DNA of 64,000 bases from Litchfieldia alkalitelluris (lineage in GTDB: Bacteria > Bacillota > Bacilli > Bacillales > Salisediminibacteriaceae): contig NZ_KZ119600.1 in NCBI RefSeq assembly GCF_002153425.1, forward strand, positions 3,213,920-3,277,919, in the 5' to 3' direction. A program made the translations under genes and the position numbers. Under the pieces are notes generated by a model that worked only from the letters and a program-made list of their open reading frames with translations, had not been told where the DNA came from and ran no database searches. Numbering within the stretch: position 1 is the stretch's first letter; each line of letters opens with the position of its first letter. Positions 25,810 through 35,942 of this stretch are shown here, piece after piece.

Positions 25810-25929
25810 AAGGACCAGGAGTGAGACCCCGCAGATGCTAAGCGGGAGTCTCACCAATCCTCCACGGTAAAGAAGACACTACGAAGAATGAGCATGTGTC
25901 GCACTTGTACGTTGCGTGAAAACAAGTAG
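25810..25929. repeat. Dispersed repeats: GTGAGACCCC...GGGAGTCTCAC type and copy B of the 8347 repeat
   Basis: The first half (25817-25857) contains GAGTGAGACCCCGCAG and GCGGGAGTCTCACC, the core of the Bacillaceae repeat seen at 28857-28985 in the other orientation. The second half (25863-25929) matches 8347-8412. The gap before 25974 shows nothing else. Confidence 0.7.
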
Positions 25930-25973
25930 TCTCCACCCAATTTAATTACTTAGGGTCTACATTCACGGTACCC

Positions 25974-27176
25974 CTATAATAAATCTGTAAGTGTTTCAAA
26001 CTCGGATATTTCATCGTTCATCTCTTTATTAATTCTTATGAAATCTTCCTTCGCCTCTCTATTGAGGAGGTCAACCAACTCAGGGTCAAACTGCGATCCA
26101 CTCCCAGAGTTTATCCGTTGGAAAGCTTCCTCAAGTGATAACTCCGACCTATAAGACCTTGTCGATGTCATGGCATCAAAGGCATCAGCAACTGCTATTA
26201 CTCGGGCATCCAATGGGATTTCTTCCCCCTTTATTTTTGCAGGATAACCCTTTCCATCCCACCGTTCATGATGATAAAGAACTCCATTTTTTAAATACTG
26301 AAGTCCATCGATTTTCCCTACCATCTTAGCACCAACGACCGGATGCGTTTTAATGATATCAAACTCTTCCTTTGTCAATTCTCCAGTTTTTTGAAGAATA
26401 GTTTCAGGAACATTAATTTTCCCAATATCATGAACTAAGCAACTCCACCTGATTCGCTTCAAATCCTCAACGCCATAATCAGGTAATAACTTAGCCAGCG
26501 CCACAGCATATTCACTAACACGCTTACTATGTCCAAAGGTATATTGATCCTTTGCTTCCACAGACGTCACAAAACTATTCACCACATCTTCCACTGTTTT
26601 CTCCATCATCTCAATAACGAGTGTAACTTGACCTGAGTAGAGTCTTTGCACAGTTTTCAAAACAGTATAGCTTAAAGCAGCTAGGATCGTATAGACAAGA
26701 ATTCGGTTAGAGATATCTATACTATCAATACGGAGGATGTCCGTTGGATAGTTAATGCTTAAAGTACTTAACACAATAAGACCTATAATCGAGTAAAAAA
26801 TCAGTATTTTACGCTCACCATAAATTCCAGCAATTAACGGCATAAGCAAAATGAAACTCCATGACTCAGAGAATCCCGACGAAAAGTAAGCTACGATAAA
26901 AAGGAGGCCGCAGAAAAATAGCATGAAGGCCTGTTTCCATTCCGATCGAAGCTTAACTTTCCGTGAAACTGATTTGTAAACAAGTAATAATCCTAAACAT
27001 GCAAGAAAAGGTGCCACATCTGCACGAGAGTAAGGTAGATCAAATAAAAGGAAAATAGTATTCCATGTACAGCTGATTATTAAGAAGATTGTGCAAATCC
27101 AAAATATATGGTTCGTTACTTTATTACGATGCTTGTGATAATAGTGGTTATATAATTGCTGTTGATATTCAATCAT
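25974..27176 (-). CDS. Membrane HD-GYP domain protein, putative cyclic-dinucleotide phosphodiesterase
   Basis: 400 residues. The N-terminal half has about six transmembrane segments (residues 24-170) and the C-terminal half is an HD-GYP domain. Catalytic motifs: HDIGK (about 250), HPVVGAKM, HHERWDGKGYP (about 297) and VADAFDAMTS. HD-GYP proteins of this type usually hydrolyse cyclic di-GMP or related dinucleotides, so the protein may be a membrane sensor lowering that signal. Transcribed divergently from the FeeM-like gene. Confidence 0.9.
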   Translation of the reverse strand: MIEYQQQLYNHYYHKHRNKVTNHIFWICTIFLIISCTWNTIFLLFDLPYSRADVAPFLACLGLLLVYKSVSRKVKLRSEWKQAFMLFFCGLLFIVAYFSSGFSESWSFILLMPLIAGIYGERKILIFYSIIGLIVLSTLSINYPTDILRIDSIDISNRILVYTILAALSYTVLKTVQRLYSGQVTLVIEMMEKTVEDVVNSFVTSVEAKDQYTFGHSKRVSEYAVALAKLLPDYGVEDLKRIRWSCLVHDIGKINVPETILQKTGELTKEEFDIIKTHPVVGAKMVGKIDGLQYLKNGVLYHHERWDGKGYPAKIKGEEIPLDARVIAVADAFDAMTSTRSYRSELSLEEAFQRINSGSGSQFDPELVDLLNREAKEDFIRINKEMNDEISEFETLTDLL

Positions 27177-27416
27177 GTTGTCAGATTCATCTCCTGCTGT
27201 AATAACTCATCTAGGTTGATTATTTTAATATAATAAATTAAAGTGCGCCACTAATATAGCGAATAGATTTCTATGTAATATTTCCCGATAAAACGTTATT
27301 TTGGAAAAAATATTTATGGAATGGATTTACATGTTAATTTAGTTTTCTCTTCTTAACGCTAGTAAATGTGTGGAATATGAGTTTCACATAAATTTGCACG
27401 TTAAGGAGTGAGCGTT

Positions 27417-28037
27417 GTGAAAAAATCAAACTTTCAATACCAGTACCAGTTTGGTATTGCCTCTAATCAGGTGAGGAAAGAAGCTGTTGCACTACACAGA
27501 GCACGTTACCAAGATGTCGGATTTCTAAAAGACGATGAGGAGGATCCTTATGAAAACGATTCTGTTTATTTCGTTGCACAGGAAATGACCAGAAACCAAG
27601 TAGTGGGAGTGACCCGATTAATATTTCTGCCAGTCGAAAAATTACCAACTTTTACAAACTTTAATATCTATAACAAGGACTATACTAAACTGATCATGCT
27701 AGAGCCTGGCAGTTACGCTGAAATGAGTGCTTTTACAAAGATGAAAAACCACGACGTAGGTGTCTTTTTACTTGCTTCTATTTATCAATATTCTTACCAA
27801 CATGGAATTACACACTGGTTTGCGAATATTGACGAACGAGTTTATCGGTATTTAAATCGAGTTTTCAGCGAAATATTTAAAGAAATCGGTAATCGAAGAG
27901 TATATATGGGATCCGTGTCTGTTCCATGTGTGGTGGATCTAGAAAATGCAATGATTCAGATGAAAGAGCGTCGGCCGAAGATTCATGAGTTATTTTTGAA
28001 AACGTCTTATCGAGAAATGGAGGTATTAAGCAAATAA
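27417..28037 (+). CDS. FeeM/LuxI-like N-acyltransferase (GNAT fold), putative N-acyl amino acid synthase
   Basis: 206 residues. The pattern fits acyl-homoserine-lactone synthase and N-acyl amino acid synthase (FeeM) proteins. An N-terminal LHRARYQDVGFL is followed by ENDSVYFVA (acidic substrate loop), VVGVTRLIFLP (the conserved RLI strand), YAEMSAF (Glu 102 at the catalytic Glu position), and QHGITHWFANIDERVYRYL with IGNRRVYMGS. Such enzymes move an acyl chain from acyl-ACP or acyl-CoA to an amine. GTG at 27417, eight bases after AAGGAG, is preferred over GTG at 27408, which overlaps that site. Its TAATG stop/start junction couples it to the ThiF-like gene. Substrate unknown. Confidence 0.82.
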   Translation: MKKSNFQYQYQFGIASNQVRKEAVALHRARYQDVGFLKDDEEDPYENDSVYFVAQEMTRNQVVGVTRLIFLPVEKLPTFTNFNIYNKDYTKLIMLEPGSYAEMSAFTKMKNHDVGVFLLASIYQYSYQHGITHWFANIDERVYRYLNRVFSEIFKEIGNRRVYMGSVSVPCVVDLENAMIQMKERRPKIHELFLKTSYREMEVLSK

Positions 28038-28792
28038 TGAAAGAACAGTTTTCTAGAAACTTAGGGATTATGACGGAGGAAGAGATAAAACAGTTGAACC
28101 AGTCAACAATATCAATAGCTGGGTGCGGCTGTATCGGTGGTTTTTCCGCGGAACTTTTAGTGCGTATAGGTGTTGAAAAAATTAAGTTGGCTGATCCTGA
28201 TACCTTTGATGTTTCTAATATCAACAGGCAATGCGCTGCAACCTATGAAACGGTTGGTATGTTGAAAACAGATGCTTTAAAGTACCATCTATTTTCTATC
28301 AATCCAGAATTAGAGGTAGAGGTTTATTCAACCGGTGTTAATGAGGCAAATGTAGCTGAGTTTGTTTCAGGAGCCGATTACGTGATTGATGCCATCGATT
28401 ATTTCAGCTTTCCAGAATCAGTTGCTTTACATCGAGCTGCTAGAAAAGCTGAGTTAAATGTCATCACTGCAGTCGCGTTAGGCTTTGGGACATCCGTTCT
28501 GACTTTTCGACCAGATGGAATGACTCTCGAAGAATATATAGGCATACCTGAAGATATTGAAATTGATGCTCTCAAGGGAATGACTTTTCCTGCGTCAAGC
28601 TATACTAATTACTTGCCTGCCTATGTAACGGAGGAAAAAATAACAGAGTGGCTAGAGAACAAAACGATACCAACAATTAGCGTTGGACAAGCTCTCGGTC
28701 CAGGGGCCCTAGTTTCACAACTAGTCCTCCACCTGTTAAATAGAAAAGAGCCAATATTCGTACCCGAAAAATATCAAATCCAGTTTGAATAA
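28037..28792 (+). CDS. ThiF/MoeB/HesA-family (E1-like) adenylyltransferase
   Basis: 251 residues of the E1-like Rossmann family that adenylates carboxyl groups. The nucleotide loop GCGCIGG is at residues 29-35, followed by LADPDTFDVSNINRQ (Arg 65) and VGMLKTDALK (Lys 78), the ATP-contacting residues, then YVIDAIDYF. The zinc-binding CxxC pairs of MoeB/ThiF are absent and no E1 catalytic Cys is obvious. It probably activates a small molecule or peptide rather than ThiS/MoaD. The start overlaps the acyltransferase stop by one base, so the two proteins likely act together. Confidence 0.9.
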   Translation: MKEQFSRNLGIMTEEEIKQLNQSTISIAGCGCIGGFSAELLVRIGVEKIKLADPDTFDVSNINRQCAATYETVGMLKTDALKYHLFSINPELEVEVYSTGVNEANVAEFVSGADYVIDAIDYFSFPESVALHRAARKAELNVITAVALGFGTSVLTFRPDGMTLEEYIGIPEDIEIDALKGMTFPASSYTNYLPAYVTEEKITEWLENKTIPTISVGQALGPGALVSQLVLHLLNRKEPIFVPEKYQIQFE

Positions 28793-28820
28793 CATAGACG
28801 GTTATTTTGTAGGTAAGAAG

Positions 28821-29040
28821 AGGCTGGGACAAAAGTGTTTTAACATATGAAATTATACGAACATTCGCTACGGAAATATACTTCGCTTTCCGCGGGCGGC
28901 TGGTGAGCCTCCTCGTGCTGCGCACTGTGGGGTCTCACCCTTGCCTTTAATCCCGCAGGAGTCTACGTATATTTCCTCCGCAAAAGTTATTATTGTTCGC
29001 AAATTACGTTAAACACTTTGGATATGTCCCAGTCTGTTTT
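28821..29040. repeat. Complete dispersed repeat with inverted ends
   Basis: The outer ends AGGCTGGGACAAAAGTGTTT (28823 onward) and the complementary AAACACTTTGGATATGTCCC near 29012-29031 form an imperfect inverted repeat. Inside is a second palindromic module, CGCTTTCCGCGGGCGGCTGG with TGAGCC, then GGGGTCTCACCC and CCCGCAGGAGTCTACG. It lies between the convergent ThiF-like and exonuclease genes, so it may also end transcription both ways. Partial relatives: 3137-3186, 25817-25857 and 33333-33370. Confidence 0.75.
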
Positions 29041-29043
29041 TAT

Positions 29044-29961
29044 TTACTTTACCATTATTAAAAACTCTTCTTCGCTAATAATCTCTATTTGATGCCCATC
29101 TTCAATCATCTTCTCTGCTTTTTTTAGTTTTGTCGATTTATTTCCTTTAATCATAACATTATCAAAGTCCCCTAAAACGATTATATCTGTTTCTTTATTT
29201 ATTCCATTTTGTGGGAAAGCTCCTTTATTAGCTACAAATTCAGCTGCATGTTTTCTAGAATAAAAATTCAGCTTTCCTGTAAATACAACCTTTCTCCCAT
29301 AAAAAGGGTTGTCACTCTCTGCCTCTTTGTTAACTTCAATACTCTTTAAATCTATTTTTTCAAATGAAAATCTCCGTTTAACTTTTGATGTTTTAAAAGT
29401 ACCAAGTGATAATTTGCCGGGTTTTATATTTGTTTTCTCAAAAAGAGCCATTTCATCAGGTATTTGGAATTCATTCAAGAGGGCTAAGAATAACTCAGCA
29501 CATGCTTTTGAATCATCTAAAGCGTTATGATGTTTTTTCAATTCAATGTTATATCTATGGCATAAAGTCTTTAATGTATATGACGGTAATCCAGGAAGCA
29601 ATATCTTAGACAATTGATAGGAACATAAAAGCTTTTTAGGAACTGGTTCAATCCTATATCTAGCTATGTTATCCTGTAAGGCATAGCCATCAAATGGAAG
29701 GTAATGAGCAACCATCAACTTATTGTTTAGTTCGCTTTTGATGTCATTATAAAATGTATTAAAAGTTGGTGCGTTTGCTACGTCTCTTTCAGTGATTCCA
29801 TGAATTGTAGTATTAAGTGAATCGAATATCGTTTCTGGGTTGATTAGCTGATAAACCTTATCTTTAATGGTGCCATCTTCAACAAAAATCATACCAACAG
29901 AACATATACTAAAGCGTTGAGAATTAGCAGTTTCAAAATCAAAAGCCACAAAACTTCTCAT
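29044..29961 (-). CDS. DnaQ-like 3'-5' exonuclease with C-terminal BRCT domain
   Basis: 305 residues. The N-terminal DEDDh exonuclease has FVAFDFETA (ExoI, residues 4-12), VAHYLPFDGYAL (ExoII) and HNALDDSKACAELF (ExoIII). A BRCT domain covers about residues 222-305 (YGRKVVFTGKLNFYSRKHAA, TDIIVLGD). Such proteins are probably DNA-repair exonucleases recruited to nicks or partner proteins. Its ATG overlaps the stop of the 159-residue gene by four bases, so the two are co-translated. Located in the accessory stretch. Confidence 0.9.
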   Translation of the reverse strand: MRSFVAFDFETANSQRFSICSVGMIFVEDGTIKDKVYQLINPETIFDSLNTTIHGITERDVANAPTFNTFYNDIKSELNNKLMVAHYLPFDGYALQDNIARYRIEPVPKKLLCSYQLSKILLPGLPSYTLKTLCHRYNIELKKHHNALDDSKACAELFLALLNEFQIPDEMALFEKTNIKPGKLSLGTFKTSKVKRRFSFEKIDLKSIEVNKEAESDNPFYGRKVVFTGKLNFYSRKHAAEFVANKGAFPQNGINKETDIIVLGDFDNVMIKGNKSTKLKKAEKMIEDGHQIEIISEEEFLIMVK

Positions 29962-30757: not shown

Positions 30758-30865
30758 TTTACACTGACAATTTTTTAGGAATATTTTATGTAAGTTCGAA
30801 TACCTTTAGTTATCCATAATCTCGTCAAACCATTGTGGTTATTAAGTTTTCCAAAGAAAAAATGG

Positions 30866-30939
<74 letters not shown>

Positions 30940-30943
30940 TTAT

Positions 30944-31017
30944 TGGAGCGGGTGATGAGAATCGAACTCACATCATCAGCTTGGAAGGCTGAGGTTTTAC
31001 CACTAAACTACACCCGC
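30944..31017 (-). tRNA. tRNA-Gly, anticodon TCC, CCA encoded
   Basis: The acceptor GCGGGTG pairs with CACCCGC, followed by discriminator T and an encoded CCA (30944-30946). The anticodon loop CTTCCAA gives TCC, and the T arm has GTTCGATT. It is separated from tRNA-Arg by four bases, so the two form one transcript. Confidence 0.97.
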
Positions 31018-31070
31018 TTAATATCTTAACTTTAATTTCTTGTTACTACTTTGGTTCTGTTTTCATCCAC

Positions 31071-34876: not shown

Positions 34877-35942
34877 GCCCGGCCTTTGTTGTTCTGGGTC
34901 CTGATCATATTCTTTGGAAAACGATAAAGATTACGGGCTCTCGGAACTTTTACCGTATTCTATCAAATAACCAAAATGAAGACTCAAATCGCTTCGTTTC
35001 CTCATTTCAGTCTCCATTTTGAGAAAATGAAGACTCAAATCGCTTCGTTTCCTCATTTCAGTCTCCATTTTGAGAAAATGAAGACTCAAATTGCTCCGCA
35101 CCCTCATTTCAGTCTCCATTCTGAAAAAATGAAGACTCAAATCGCTTCCCTTCCTCATTTCAGTCTCCATTTTGAGAAAATGAAGACTCAAATCGCTTCC
35201 CTTCCTCATTTCAGTCTCCATTTTGAGAAAATGAAGACTCAAATCGCTTCGCCCCCTCATTTCAGTCCCCATTCTGAAAAAATGAAGACTCAAATTACTG
35301 CGCCTCCTCATTTCAGTCCCCATTCTGAAAAAATGAAGACTCAAATCGCTTCGCCCCCTCATTTCAGTCCCCATTTTGAGAAAATGAAGACTCAAATCGA
35401 TCCGCCCCCTCATTTCAGTCTCCATTTTGAGAAAATGCGGACTCAAATCGCTTCCCAGCCTTATTTCAGTCCCCATTCTGAAAAAATGAAGACTCAAATC
35501 GCTTCGCCTCCTCATTTCAGTCCCCATTCTGAGAAAATGAAGACTCAAATCGCTTCCCTGAGTCATTTCAGTCTCCATTCTGAAAAAATGAAGACTCAAA
35601 TTACTGCGCCTCCTCATTTCAGTCCCCATTCTGAAAAAATGAAGACTCAAATCGCTTCGCCCCCTCATTTCAGTCCCCATTTTGAGAAAATGAAGACTCA
35701 AATCGATCCGCCCCCTCATTTCAGTCTCCATTTTGAGAAAATGCGGACTCAAATCGCTTCCCAGCCTTATTTCAGTCCCCATTCTGAAAAAATGAAGACT
35801 CAAATCGCTTCGCCTCCTCATTTCAGTCCCCATTCTGAGAAAATGAAGACTCAAATCGCTTCCCTGAGTCATTTCAGTCTCCATTCTGAAAAAATGAAGA
35901 CTCAAATTGCTCCCCTTCCTCTTTTCAGTCTCCATTCTGAAT
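34877..35942. repeat. Head plus 19-unit 51-bp tandem array (dispersed element, long copy)
   Basis: A head of about 99 bases (34877-34975, starting GCCCGGCCTTTGTTGTTCT) is followed by 19 units of 51 bases starting at 34976. Each unit is a 37-base imperfect palindrome (17-base arms with two mismatches around GAG or GAA) plus a 14-base segment where most variation falls. Units 7-12 (35282-35587) and 13-18 (35588-35893) are an apparently perfect 306-bp duplication. A short copy with the same head is at 60058-60256. Because 51 is a multiple of three, both strands are open as 17-residue periodic frames, but neither has a ribosome site. Confidence 0.93.

Follow-up and report, generated by a model that had tools for sequence, protein, structure and literature searches.

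Within a 64,000-nucleotide stretch of the Litchfieldia alkalitelluris genome (assembly GCF_002153425.1, contig NZ_KZ119600.1, positions 3,213,920 to 3,277,919; hereafter the window), we describe a cassette of three genes encoding a FeeM/LuxI-type acyltransferase, an overlapping ThiF/E1-like adenylyltransferase and a divergently oriented membrane HD-GYP protein. The same arrangement is found in four other loci, and we regard it as nearly certain that the three genes form one unit. Our tentative reading, to which we assign a probability of about 0.4, is a self-contained module of synthase, cyclase and cognate responder, in which an acylated amino acid product would act on cyclic di-GMP (c-di-GMP). 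The features of the cassette, in window coordinates, are as follows.

25974..27176, minus strand: membrane HD-GYP protein, 400 aa, the third gene of the conserved module (PF13487 HD_5, E 1.4e-39; motifs)
26076..26564, minus strand: HD-GYP phosphodiesterase domain, residues 205-367 (PF13487 match)
26592..27176, minus strand: N-terminal membrane domain of the HD-GYP protein, a putative sensor, residues 1-195, with several hydrophobic stretches (hydropathy, motifs)
27177..27416, no strand: intergenic region between the divergent HD-GYP and FeeM genes (alignment of five regions)
27403..27408, plus strand: Shine-Dalgarno sequence AAGGAG of the FeeM-like gene (sequence)
27417..28037, plus strand: FeeM/LuxI-type acyltransferase, 206 aa, predicted N-acyl amino acid synthase with E102 (PF21926, AlphaFold2, Foldseek)
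28035..28039, plus strand: TAATG stop/start overlap of the FeeM-like and ThiF-like genes (overlap in five of five loci)
28037..28792, plus strand: ThiF/E1-like adenylyltransferase, 251 aa, predicted ATP-dependent cyclase (PF00899, motifs)

A conserved and patchily distributed three-gene unit

All five loci with a ThiF-like protein above 400 bits (the window and four relatives) consist of a FeeM-like gene, an overlapping ThiF-like gene and a divergent membrane HD-GYP gene, and the FeeM stop overlaps the ThiF start in every one (TAATG in three of the relatives, ATGA in the fourth). Pairwise identities are 67-75% for ThiF, 43-58% for FeeM and 48-60% for HD-GYP, with no internal stops, and the FeeM-ThiF pair cannot be due to chance because it is open and conserved in four loci besides the window. 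Flanking open reading frames (ORFs) of at least 60 codons were also compared, over 8 kb to either side of the window cassette and 4.0 to 7.4 kb for the relatives. Apart from the three genes, none of the ten locus pairs shares a match at E<=1e-6, so that the unit comprises exactly three genes. The initial annotation, made from sequence alone, had proposed that the acyltransferase and adenylyltransferase are coupled, and their adjacency is indeed conserved in all five loci; it had also treated the HD-GYP gene as divergent context, which is correct as to position but too weak a description, since that gene belongs to the conserved unit in five of five loci. Moreover, the HD-GYP and FeeM identity matrices correlate with each other (r 0.89, 2 of 120 permutations).

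The cassette is rare. Among 398 genomes of the class Bacilli, 73 contain some ThiF match at E<=1e-25, two of them above 400 bits (the window's own genome and G149), and the next score is 151 bits. Searches of 328 genomes of the window's order recovered the own genome, G504 and G510 (E<=1e-35, each above 450 bits), while one of 35 genomes of the window's family (the own genome, E<=1e-40) and one of four of G149's family (E<=1e-30) had a match. A pattern scan of genome contigs, which undercounts because it uses short exact peptides, added a further locus in Alkalibacterium sp. AK22 (L006). No fewer than four families are represented among the five loci (f1, f20, f28, f60; Alkalibacterium is assigned to Carnobacteriaceae). 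A strong match to the FeeM-like protein occurs in 2 of the 398 Bacilli genomes and, among 100 relatives, in the own genome together with one weak match. The earlier remark that a synthase of the acyl-homoserine-lactone (AHL) type is unusual in Bacillaceae thus holds for the close FeeM relatives that this survey covered.

A tblastn search with the FeeM-like protein at E<=0.01 returned nothing from 72,556 plasmid records, a search that misses distant FeeM domains, because a Nitratidesulfovibrio plasmid fusion carries one. A pattern scan found no ThiF relative in viral contigs, and there is no composition signal of transfer (37.7% GC in the cassette, 37.7% in the window). It is from the patchy distribution and the unlike flanks that we infer horizontal transfer of the cassette.

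A predicted N-acyl amino acid synthase

The FeeM-like ORF starts with GTG at 27417 and stops with TAA at 28037. Its product scores 29.3 bits against PF21926 FeeM (cut-off 27, E 8.7e-7), a cut-off passed by four of the five cassette FeeM proteins, with L070 slightly under it at 26.6 bits. Against Autoind_synth (PF00765) the window protein reaches 15.7 bits, under the cut-off of 24 that two of the four relatives narrowly pass (L042, 26.9; L006, 24.4). An AlphaFold2 model built from three aligned cassette proteins (predicted local distance difference test score, pLDDT, 83.6) was compared with the PDB by Foldseek: AHL synthases rank first (BjaI, 5w8g, E 1.9e-8), and FeeM (2g0b_D) has the top query template-modelling score, 0.64 (target 0.72), among the best 50 rows. 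General GNAT enzymes likewise match the model, as the superfamily predicts, and the sequence profile has no PDB match at E<=1, so it is fold and Pfam that carry the FeeM/LuxI assignment.

Fold prediction therefore places the 206-residue protein where the initial annotation had placed it, in the FeeM/LuxI branch, and the RLI strand (residues 67-69) and E102 (inside YAEMSAF) lie at the positions given there. By sequence comparison, the motif [YF]AE.SAF with E102 is kept in five of five FeeM-like proteins. The catalytic glutamate is reported as Glu95 in FeeM and Glu103 in Nas354 (PMC4897644), and the position of E102 is plausible for this role. Judged by family, the protein is probably an N-acyl amino acid synthase (NAS). 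An AHL synthase proper was set aside as first choice, given the Autoind_synth score under the cut-off and the fact that an AHL offers no free carboxylate to the ThiF-like partner.

A ThiF-like enzyme of its own clade

The ThiF-like ORF runs from ATG at 28037 to TAA at 28792, and its product matches PF00899 ThiF with E 8.6e-36. It carries GCGCIGG at residues 29-35, NINRQ (NRQ at 63-65) and K77; of the features listed initially, the TAATG junction, GCGCIGG, NRQ and the lack of CxxC zinc pairs are all borne out, and only the lysine needs correcting, from K78 to K77. CxxC zinc pairs are a mark of the MoeB/ThiF/UBA sulfur-transfer E1 group, and a sequence check found them in none of the five cassette proteins.

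For all five cassette proteins, PRK08223 is the best and PRK14851 the second-best NCBIfam model, above the ThiS-, ThiF-, MoeB- and TcdA-type models. The PRK14851 model covers the ThiF and nitroreductase parts of L008, a plasmid-encoded FeeM-ThiF-oxidase protein. A three-row profile of the cassette proteins has TcdA as its best PDB match, and TcdA is annotated as yielding a cyclic product; MccB and PaaA are also among the PDB matches. In a tree of 33 rows, a sample that excludes TyzB, OxzB and TrzS, the cassette proteins form a clade of their own (support 100/99).

Reasoning from characterised relatives, we consider it likely that the enzyme adenylates a carboxylate. The earlier proposal that its substrate is an N-acyl amino acid, activated at the free carboxylate, gains a biochemical precedent, by analogy, in published accounts of TyzB and TrzS (PMC10404671, PMC12856293). 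The profile scores speak against a molybdopterin or thiamin E1, as do the missing CxxC pairs and the fact that no carrier-protein gene is common to the compared flanks, and this reading was rejected. An anti-phage E1-E2 system (PADLOC) was also rejected: 32 PADLOC families match the protein, and the best 25 of the 32 are all named E1-E2, matches that cover inner parts of longer models only, while the four neighbours scanned with Pfam are neither E2 nor JAB proteins.

In the G504 cassette (L071:3416-5899), and only there, genes for a phosphopantetheinyl transferase and an AMP-ligase with a carrier domain directly follow ThiF; they perhaps supply the acyl donor.

Precedent for an acyl-oxazolone and the missing oxidase

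The combination of FeeM-like and ThiF-like enzymes is already known. In Mycobacterium tuberculosis, TyzA, with a predicted fold nearest to AHL synthases and FeeM, acylates Tyr or Phe, the ThiF homolog TyzB cyclises the N-acyl amino acid using ATP, and TyzC, a flavin-dependent oxidase (FDO) of the nitroreductase family, performs desaturation on the way to tyrazolone (PMC10404671). TrzAS follows the same logic, with FeeM-like acylation and then ATP-dependent cyclisation to an oxazolone by a ThiF domain; in TrzS the ring closes before desaturation, and disabling the oxidase part or limiting oxygen yields the cyclised compound in its saturated form (PMC12856293).

The cassette shares with TyzACB, OxzAB and TrzAS an NAS beside or fused to a ThiF-like cyclase (five of five loci) but has no adjacent or fused FDO: none of the three genes encodes an oxidase, and the FDO model NF047509 exceeds its cut-off in none of the five whole cassette genomes (one 25-residue match occurs in G479, E 1.2e-5). 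Nitroreductase-family PF00881 matches number three in the own genome, seven in G149 and one in G479. A partner among them was rejected after seven proteins, accounting for 8 of these 11 matches (the three small G149 matches excepted), were typed and none reached the FDO cut-off. Because the cassette has no oxidase gene, and on the precedent of TyzB and TrzS, we infer a product that would be a saturated 2-alkyl-oxazol-5(4H)-one or its hydrolysis product, with the balance tilting slightly towards the oxazolone as the main product.

Several further differences separate the cassette from these systems. The genes that the available text of PMC10404671 names around tyzACB are cysK1, cysE and mmpL9, with no HD-GYP, and TyzA and TyzB are larger (322 and 318 aa, against 206 and 251 aa). 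As described in PMC12856293, TrzAS and OxzAB have ThiF fused to the oxidase and yield products of aromatic amino acids. The PRK14852 fusion L008, from the Nitratidesulfovibrio plasmid, also ties FeeM to ThiF, there by natural fusion, but it is one polypeptide of 989 aa that includes a nitroreductase part, and its surroundings are of the PEP-CTERM/XrtA kind.

A membrane HD-GYP partner and the link to c-di-GMP

The phosphodiesterase domain appears intact throughout, with HD[IV]GKI and HHE.WDG.GYP unbroken and PF13487 matched in five of five HD-GYP proteins. The hydropathy of the membrane domain and its motifs LP[YF]SRA and SG[FY][ST]E[SA]WS are likewise kept in all five, with 38-51% identity in this domain between the four relatives and the window copy. 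Few of the sampled Bacilli encode a protein with this membrane domain. Five matches at E<=1e-8 were found in 326 genomes of the order (three cassette genomes above 300 bits, G690 at 231 bits and G064 at 137 bits) and eight at E<=0.001 in the 398 class genomes (two cassettes above 330 bits, G064 at 132 bits and five weak matches below 25 bits). With Alkalibacterium included and the five weak class matches left out, this HD-GYP type is accompanied by FeeM-ThiF in five of seven loci, and FeeM-ThiF by the HD-GYP gene in five of five.

Between the HD-GYP and FeeM genes, alignment of the five intergenic regions found no clear shared motif. Promoter-like sites in 25900-29060 number 5 against a shuffle mean of 9.4, and terminator-like counts are likewise no higher than in shuffles.

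The HD-GYP gene of G690 (L077:74-8043) lies directly downstream of genes for asparagine synthase, HPr-kinase-like, PqqD, Transglut_core3 and nucleotidyltransferase proteins (Pfam), accompanied by an ABC transporter (by eye), a set which we take to resemble lasso-peptide biosynthesis genes. This arrangement may fit a receptor for a self-made product, or may be coincidence.

Each of four cassette host genomes (those other than Alkalibacterium) has 14-26 GGDEF matches, so that c-di-GMP is probably in use in these four. Three observations link NAS enzymes to c-di-GMP: the cassette itself; rv1354c and rv1357c, predicted c-di-GMP turnover genes that adjoin trzAS, where the source describes no conserved divergent HD-GYP gene (PMC12856293); and the synthases Nas343 and Nas354, whose NAS domain is fused to a second domain that was modelled after a PilZ protein able to bind c-di-GMP, with the catalytic glutamate of Nas354 demonstrated by mutation (PMC4897644). 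Those fusions differ from the cassette in that the synthase protein itself carries the c-di-GMP-sensing domain, and no ThiF partner is mentioned in the available text of that source. A survey of c-di-GMP genes beside plasmid FeeM-ThiF-oxidase proteins was precluded by numbers, with four records at E<=1e-20. An established pairing of an acyl-signal synthase with a c-di-GMP phosphodiesterase receptor exists in RpfF/RpfR of the diffusible signal factor system, which is built from other parts: an enoyl-CoA hydratase-type synthase, a PAS-GGDEF-EAL receptor and a fatty acid signal (PMC4698668, PMC8846402).

Weighing the module against other explanations

In the proposed module, the FeeM-like enzyme would N-acylate an amino acid with a fatty acyl chain, as its family suggests. 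The ThiF-like enzyme would then adenylate the free carboxylate, so that the amide oxygen closes the ring to a saturated 2-alkyl-oxazol-5(4H)-one, and the HD-GYP membrane domain would sense this lipid or its hydrolysis product, with the HD-GYP domain changing c-di-GMP. Strict linkage in five of five loci suggests the role of cognate responder, and the odds that the HD-GYP protein does react to the product seem to us about even. The sharpest form of this proposal is doubtful: a horizontally moving Bacilli circuit whose two small enzymes produce a saturated acyl-oxazolone, with the membrane HD-GYP protein reading this compound directly and lowering c-di-GMP. A membrane HD-GYP partner suggests control of c-di-GMP by the product, the direction established for RpfF/RpfR.

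A number of results weigh against the proposal. The window ThiF sequence alone has 9egc/9egb as its best PDB match, with TcdA close behind (a literature search found no function for the ThiF-fold protein 9egb/9egc), and the cassette ThiF scores lie under the cut-offs of PRK08223, PRK14851 and the ThiS-, MoeB- and TcdA-type models. The tree leaves the cassette clade unjoined to L008 and L010, and the nearest, weakly supported group (85/72) comprises L007, L009, L014 and L015. Because the tree keeps the cassettes apart and the profile scores fall under cut-offs, the cyclase role rests on analogy rather than on clade membership. An unlinked oxidase could also exist: a 287-aa nitroreductase-like protein in the own genome scores 21.1 bits against the Rv1355c family and 21.8 bits against NF047509, and could fill that role. 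A divergent unlinked FDO is possible in view of this weak match and because NF047509 itself misses the oxidase parts of L008 and L011 (128 and 155 bits, under its own cut-off of 199). Saturated oxazolones are reactive and awkward for a long-range signal. The structure model of the HD-GYP membrane domain is poor (pLDDT 58) and unusable for structure search. The HD-GYP genes of G690 and G064 have a similar membrane domain and no FeeM or ThiF nearby: profile searches at E<=10, with L042 as positive control, found no relatives of either in the 14.0 kb and 11.7 kb around them, and by eye VDFSGA and IPYPKA replace LP[YF]SRA. Furthermore, ThiF identities do not clearly covary with those of HD-GYP or FeeM (13 and 29 of 120 permutations), and with five loci only, the three-gene arrangement may have one single origin.

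The lone HD-GYP genes give some substance to the idea that the HD-GYP gene is a hitchhiker, a divergent neighbour shared only by descent with an ordinary oxazolone or lipid cluster. We consider this improbable, since the gene is kept in five of five loci where no other neighbour within 4-8 kb is common to any of the ten pairs, and since HD-GYP and FeeM identities covary. A stronger rival reverses the direction of control: the HD-GYP protein would set the timing of an acyl compound (a surfactant, membrane lipid or antibiotic) through c-di-GMP, without sensing it. The PilZ-fused synthases suggest this opposite direction, as their authors interpret the fusion as a means of regulating the synthase (PMC4897644), and strict three-gene linkage fits either direction. 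Nonetheless, a Pfam scan of both window enzymes and of the FeeM-like proteins from the four other loci found no PilZ match, and the conserved membrane domain of the HD-GYP protein suggests an input of its own; we rate upstream control as unlikely.

On the chemical side, a comparable minority chance goes to an oxazolone that would soon be hydrolysed, its alpha-carbon stereochemistry either kept or lost, so that the product would be an N-acyl-D-amino acid or a simple N-acyl amino acid. The three genes include no oxidase, and the five genomes hold none that passes the cut-off of the FDO model, so the ring would have no stabilising conjugation. An oxazolone-like intermediate has been offered as one explanation for epimerised N-acyl tyrosine, and the same source mentions ThiF-containing clusters for which oxazolones were not seen (PMC12479983). 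Yet the ATP would be wasted unless epimerisation is the purpose, for which the sequence offers no evidence. Alternatively, the ThiF-like enzyme might pass the activated N-acyl amino acid to another nucleophile (an amine, thiol, tRNA or protein), in the manner of E1 enzymes and of MccB or PaaA. Its E1-like core with nucleotide-binding motifs, and the MccB and PaaA matches in the PDB, are compatible with such a transfer; however, CxxC zinc pairs are absent in all five proteins, the compared flanks hold no carrier-protein or acceptor gene common to the cassettes, and the nearest profiles are PRK08223 and the ThiF-plus-nitroreductase model, so that we rate transfer as rather improbable.

Related ThiF loci and other observations in the window

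In three of the four loci of the nearest ThiF group, ThiF adjoins a formyl- or carbamoyltransferase gene, and ArsR-type regulators are present. Specifically, ThiF stands beside a gene for a carbamoyl- or formyltransferase in L007 and L009 (both plasmids) and in L015; each locus also has an ArsR-type regulator (in L015 by eye), and the two plasmids add an MFS transporter. By analogy, ThiF might there cyclise amino acids that carry an N-formyl or N-carbamoyl group. The fourth, L014:444-2926 (G188), has in a row an ArsR-like regulator (by eye), ThiF and a protein whose best Pfam match is T_hemolysin (36.3 bits), with FeeM at 17.3 bits, under the cut-off. Several Bacilli (L016, L019, L021, L023, L024, L025) carry a tandem pair of ThiF-like genes, each encoding about 290 aa, which fall into two separate tree clades.

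Elsewhere in the window, positions 34973-35940 hold a tandem array of 19 copies of a 51-bp unit (88% match), open in long frames on both strands and lying between GerM-like lipoprotein and glutamate-racemase-like genes (names by eye). On the minus strand at 30863-31017, tRNA-Arg(TCT) and tRNA-Gly(TCC) lie beneath an ORF at 30835-31029, which is probably spurious for that reason.

Significance

What appears to be new here is the HD-GYP-linked, oxidase-less form, since FeeM-ThiF chemistry and links to c-di-GMP are already in print. In a literature search that covered few subscription papers, we found no description of this form in Bacilli, and no paper in the literature searched brings an NAS together with HD-GYP. 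The cassette joins a synthase, a cyclase and one c-di-GMP enzyme that were kept together while their neighbours changed. If the module reading is true, an acyl-oxazolone would be a look-alike of an acyl-homoserine lactone with a built-in hydrolytic clock, and Bacilli, in which close relatives of this synthase are seldom found, would have a signal of the acyl-amino-acid type. The authors of the TrzAS study call the physiological role of these oxazolone lipids a major unresolved question (PMC12856293); a lipid-to-second-messenger signal system, if that is what the cassette encodes, would be a possible answer to the purpose of acyl-oxazolones. Its small size and its presence in several families of Bacilli make the idea of acyl-oxazolones as c-di-GMP signals testable with three genes.

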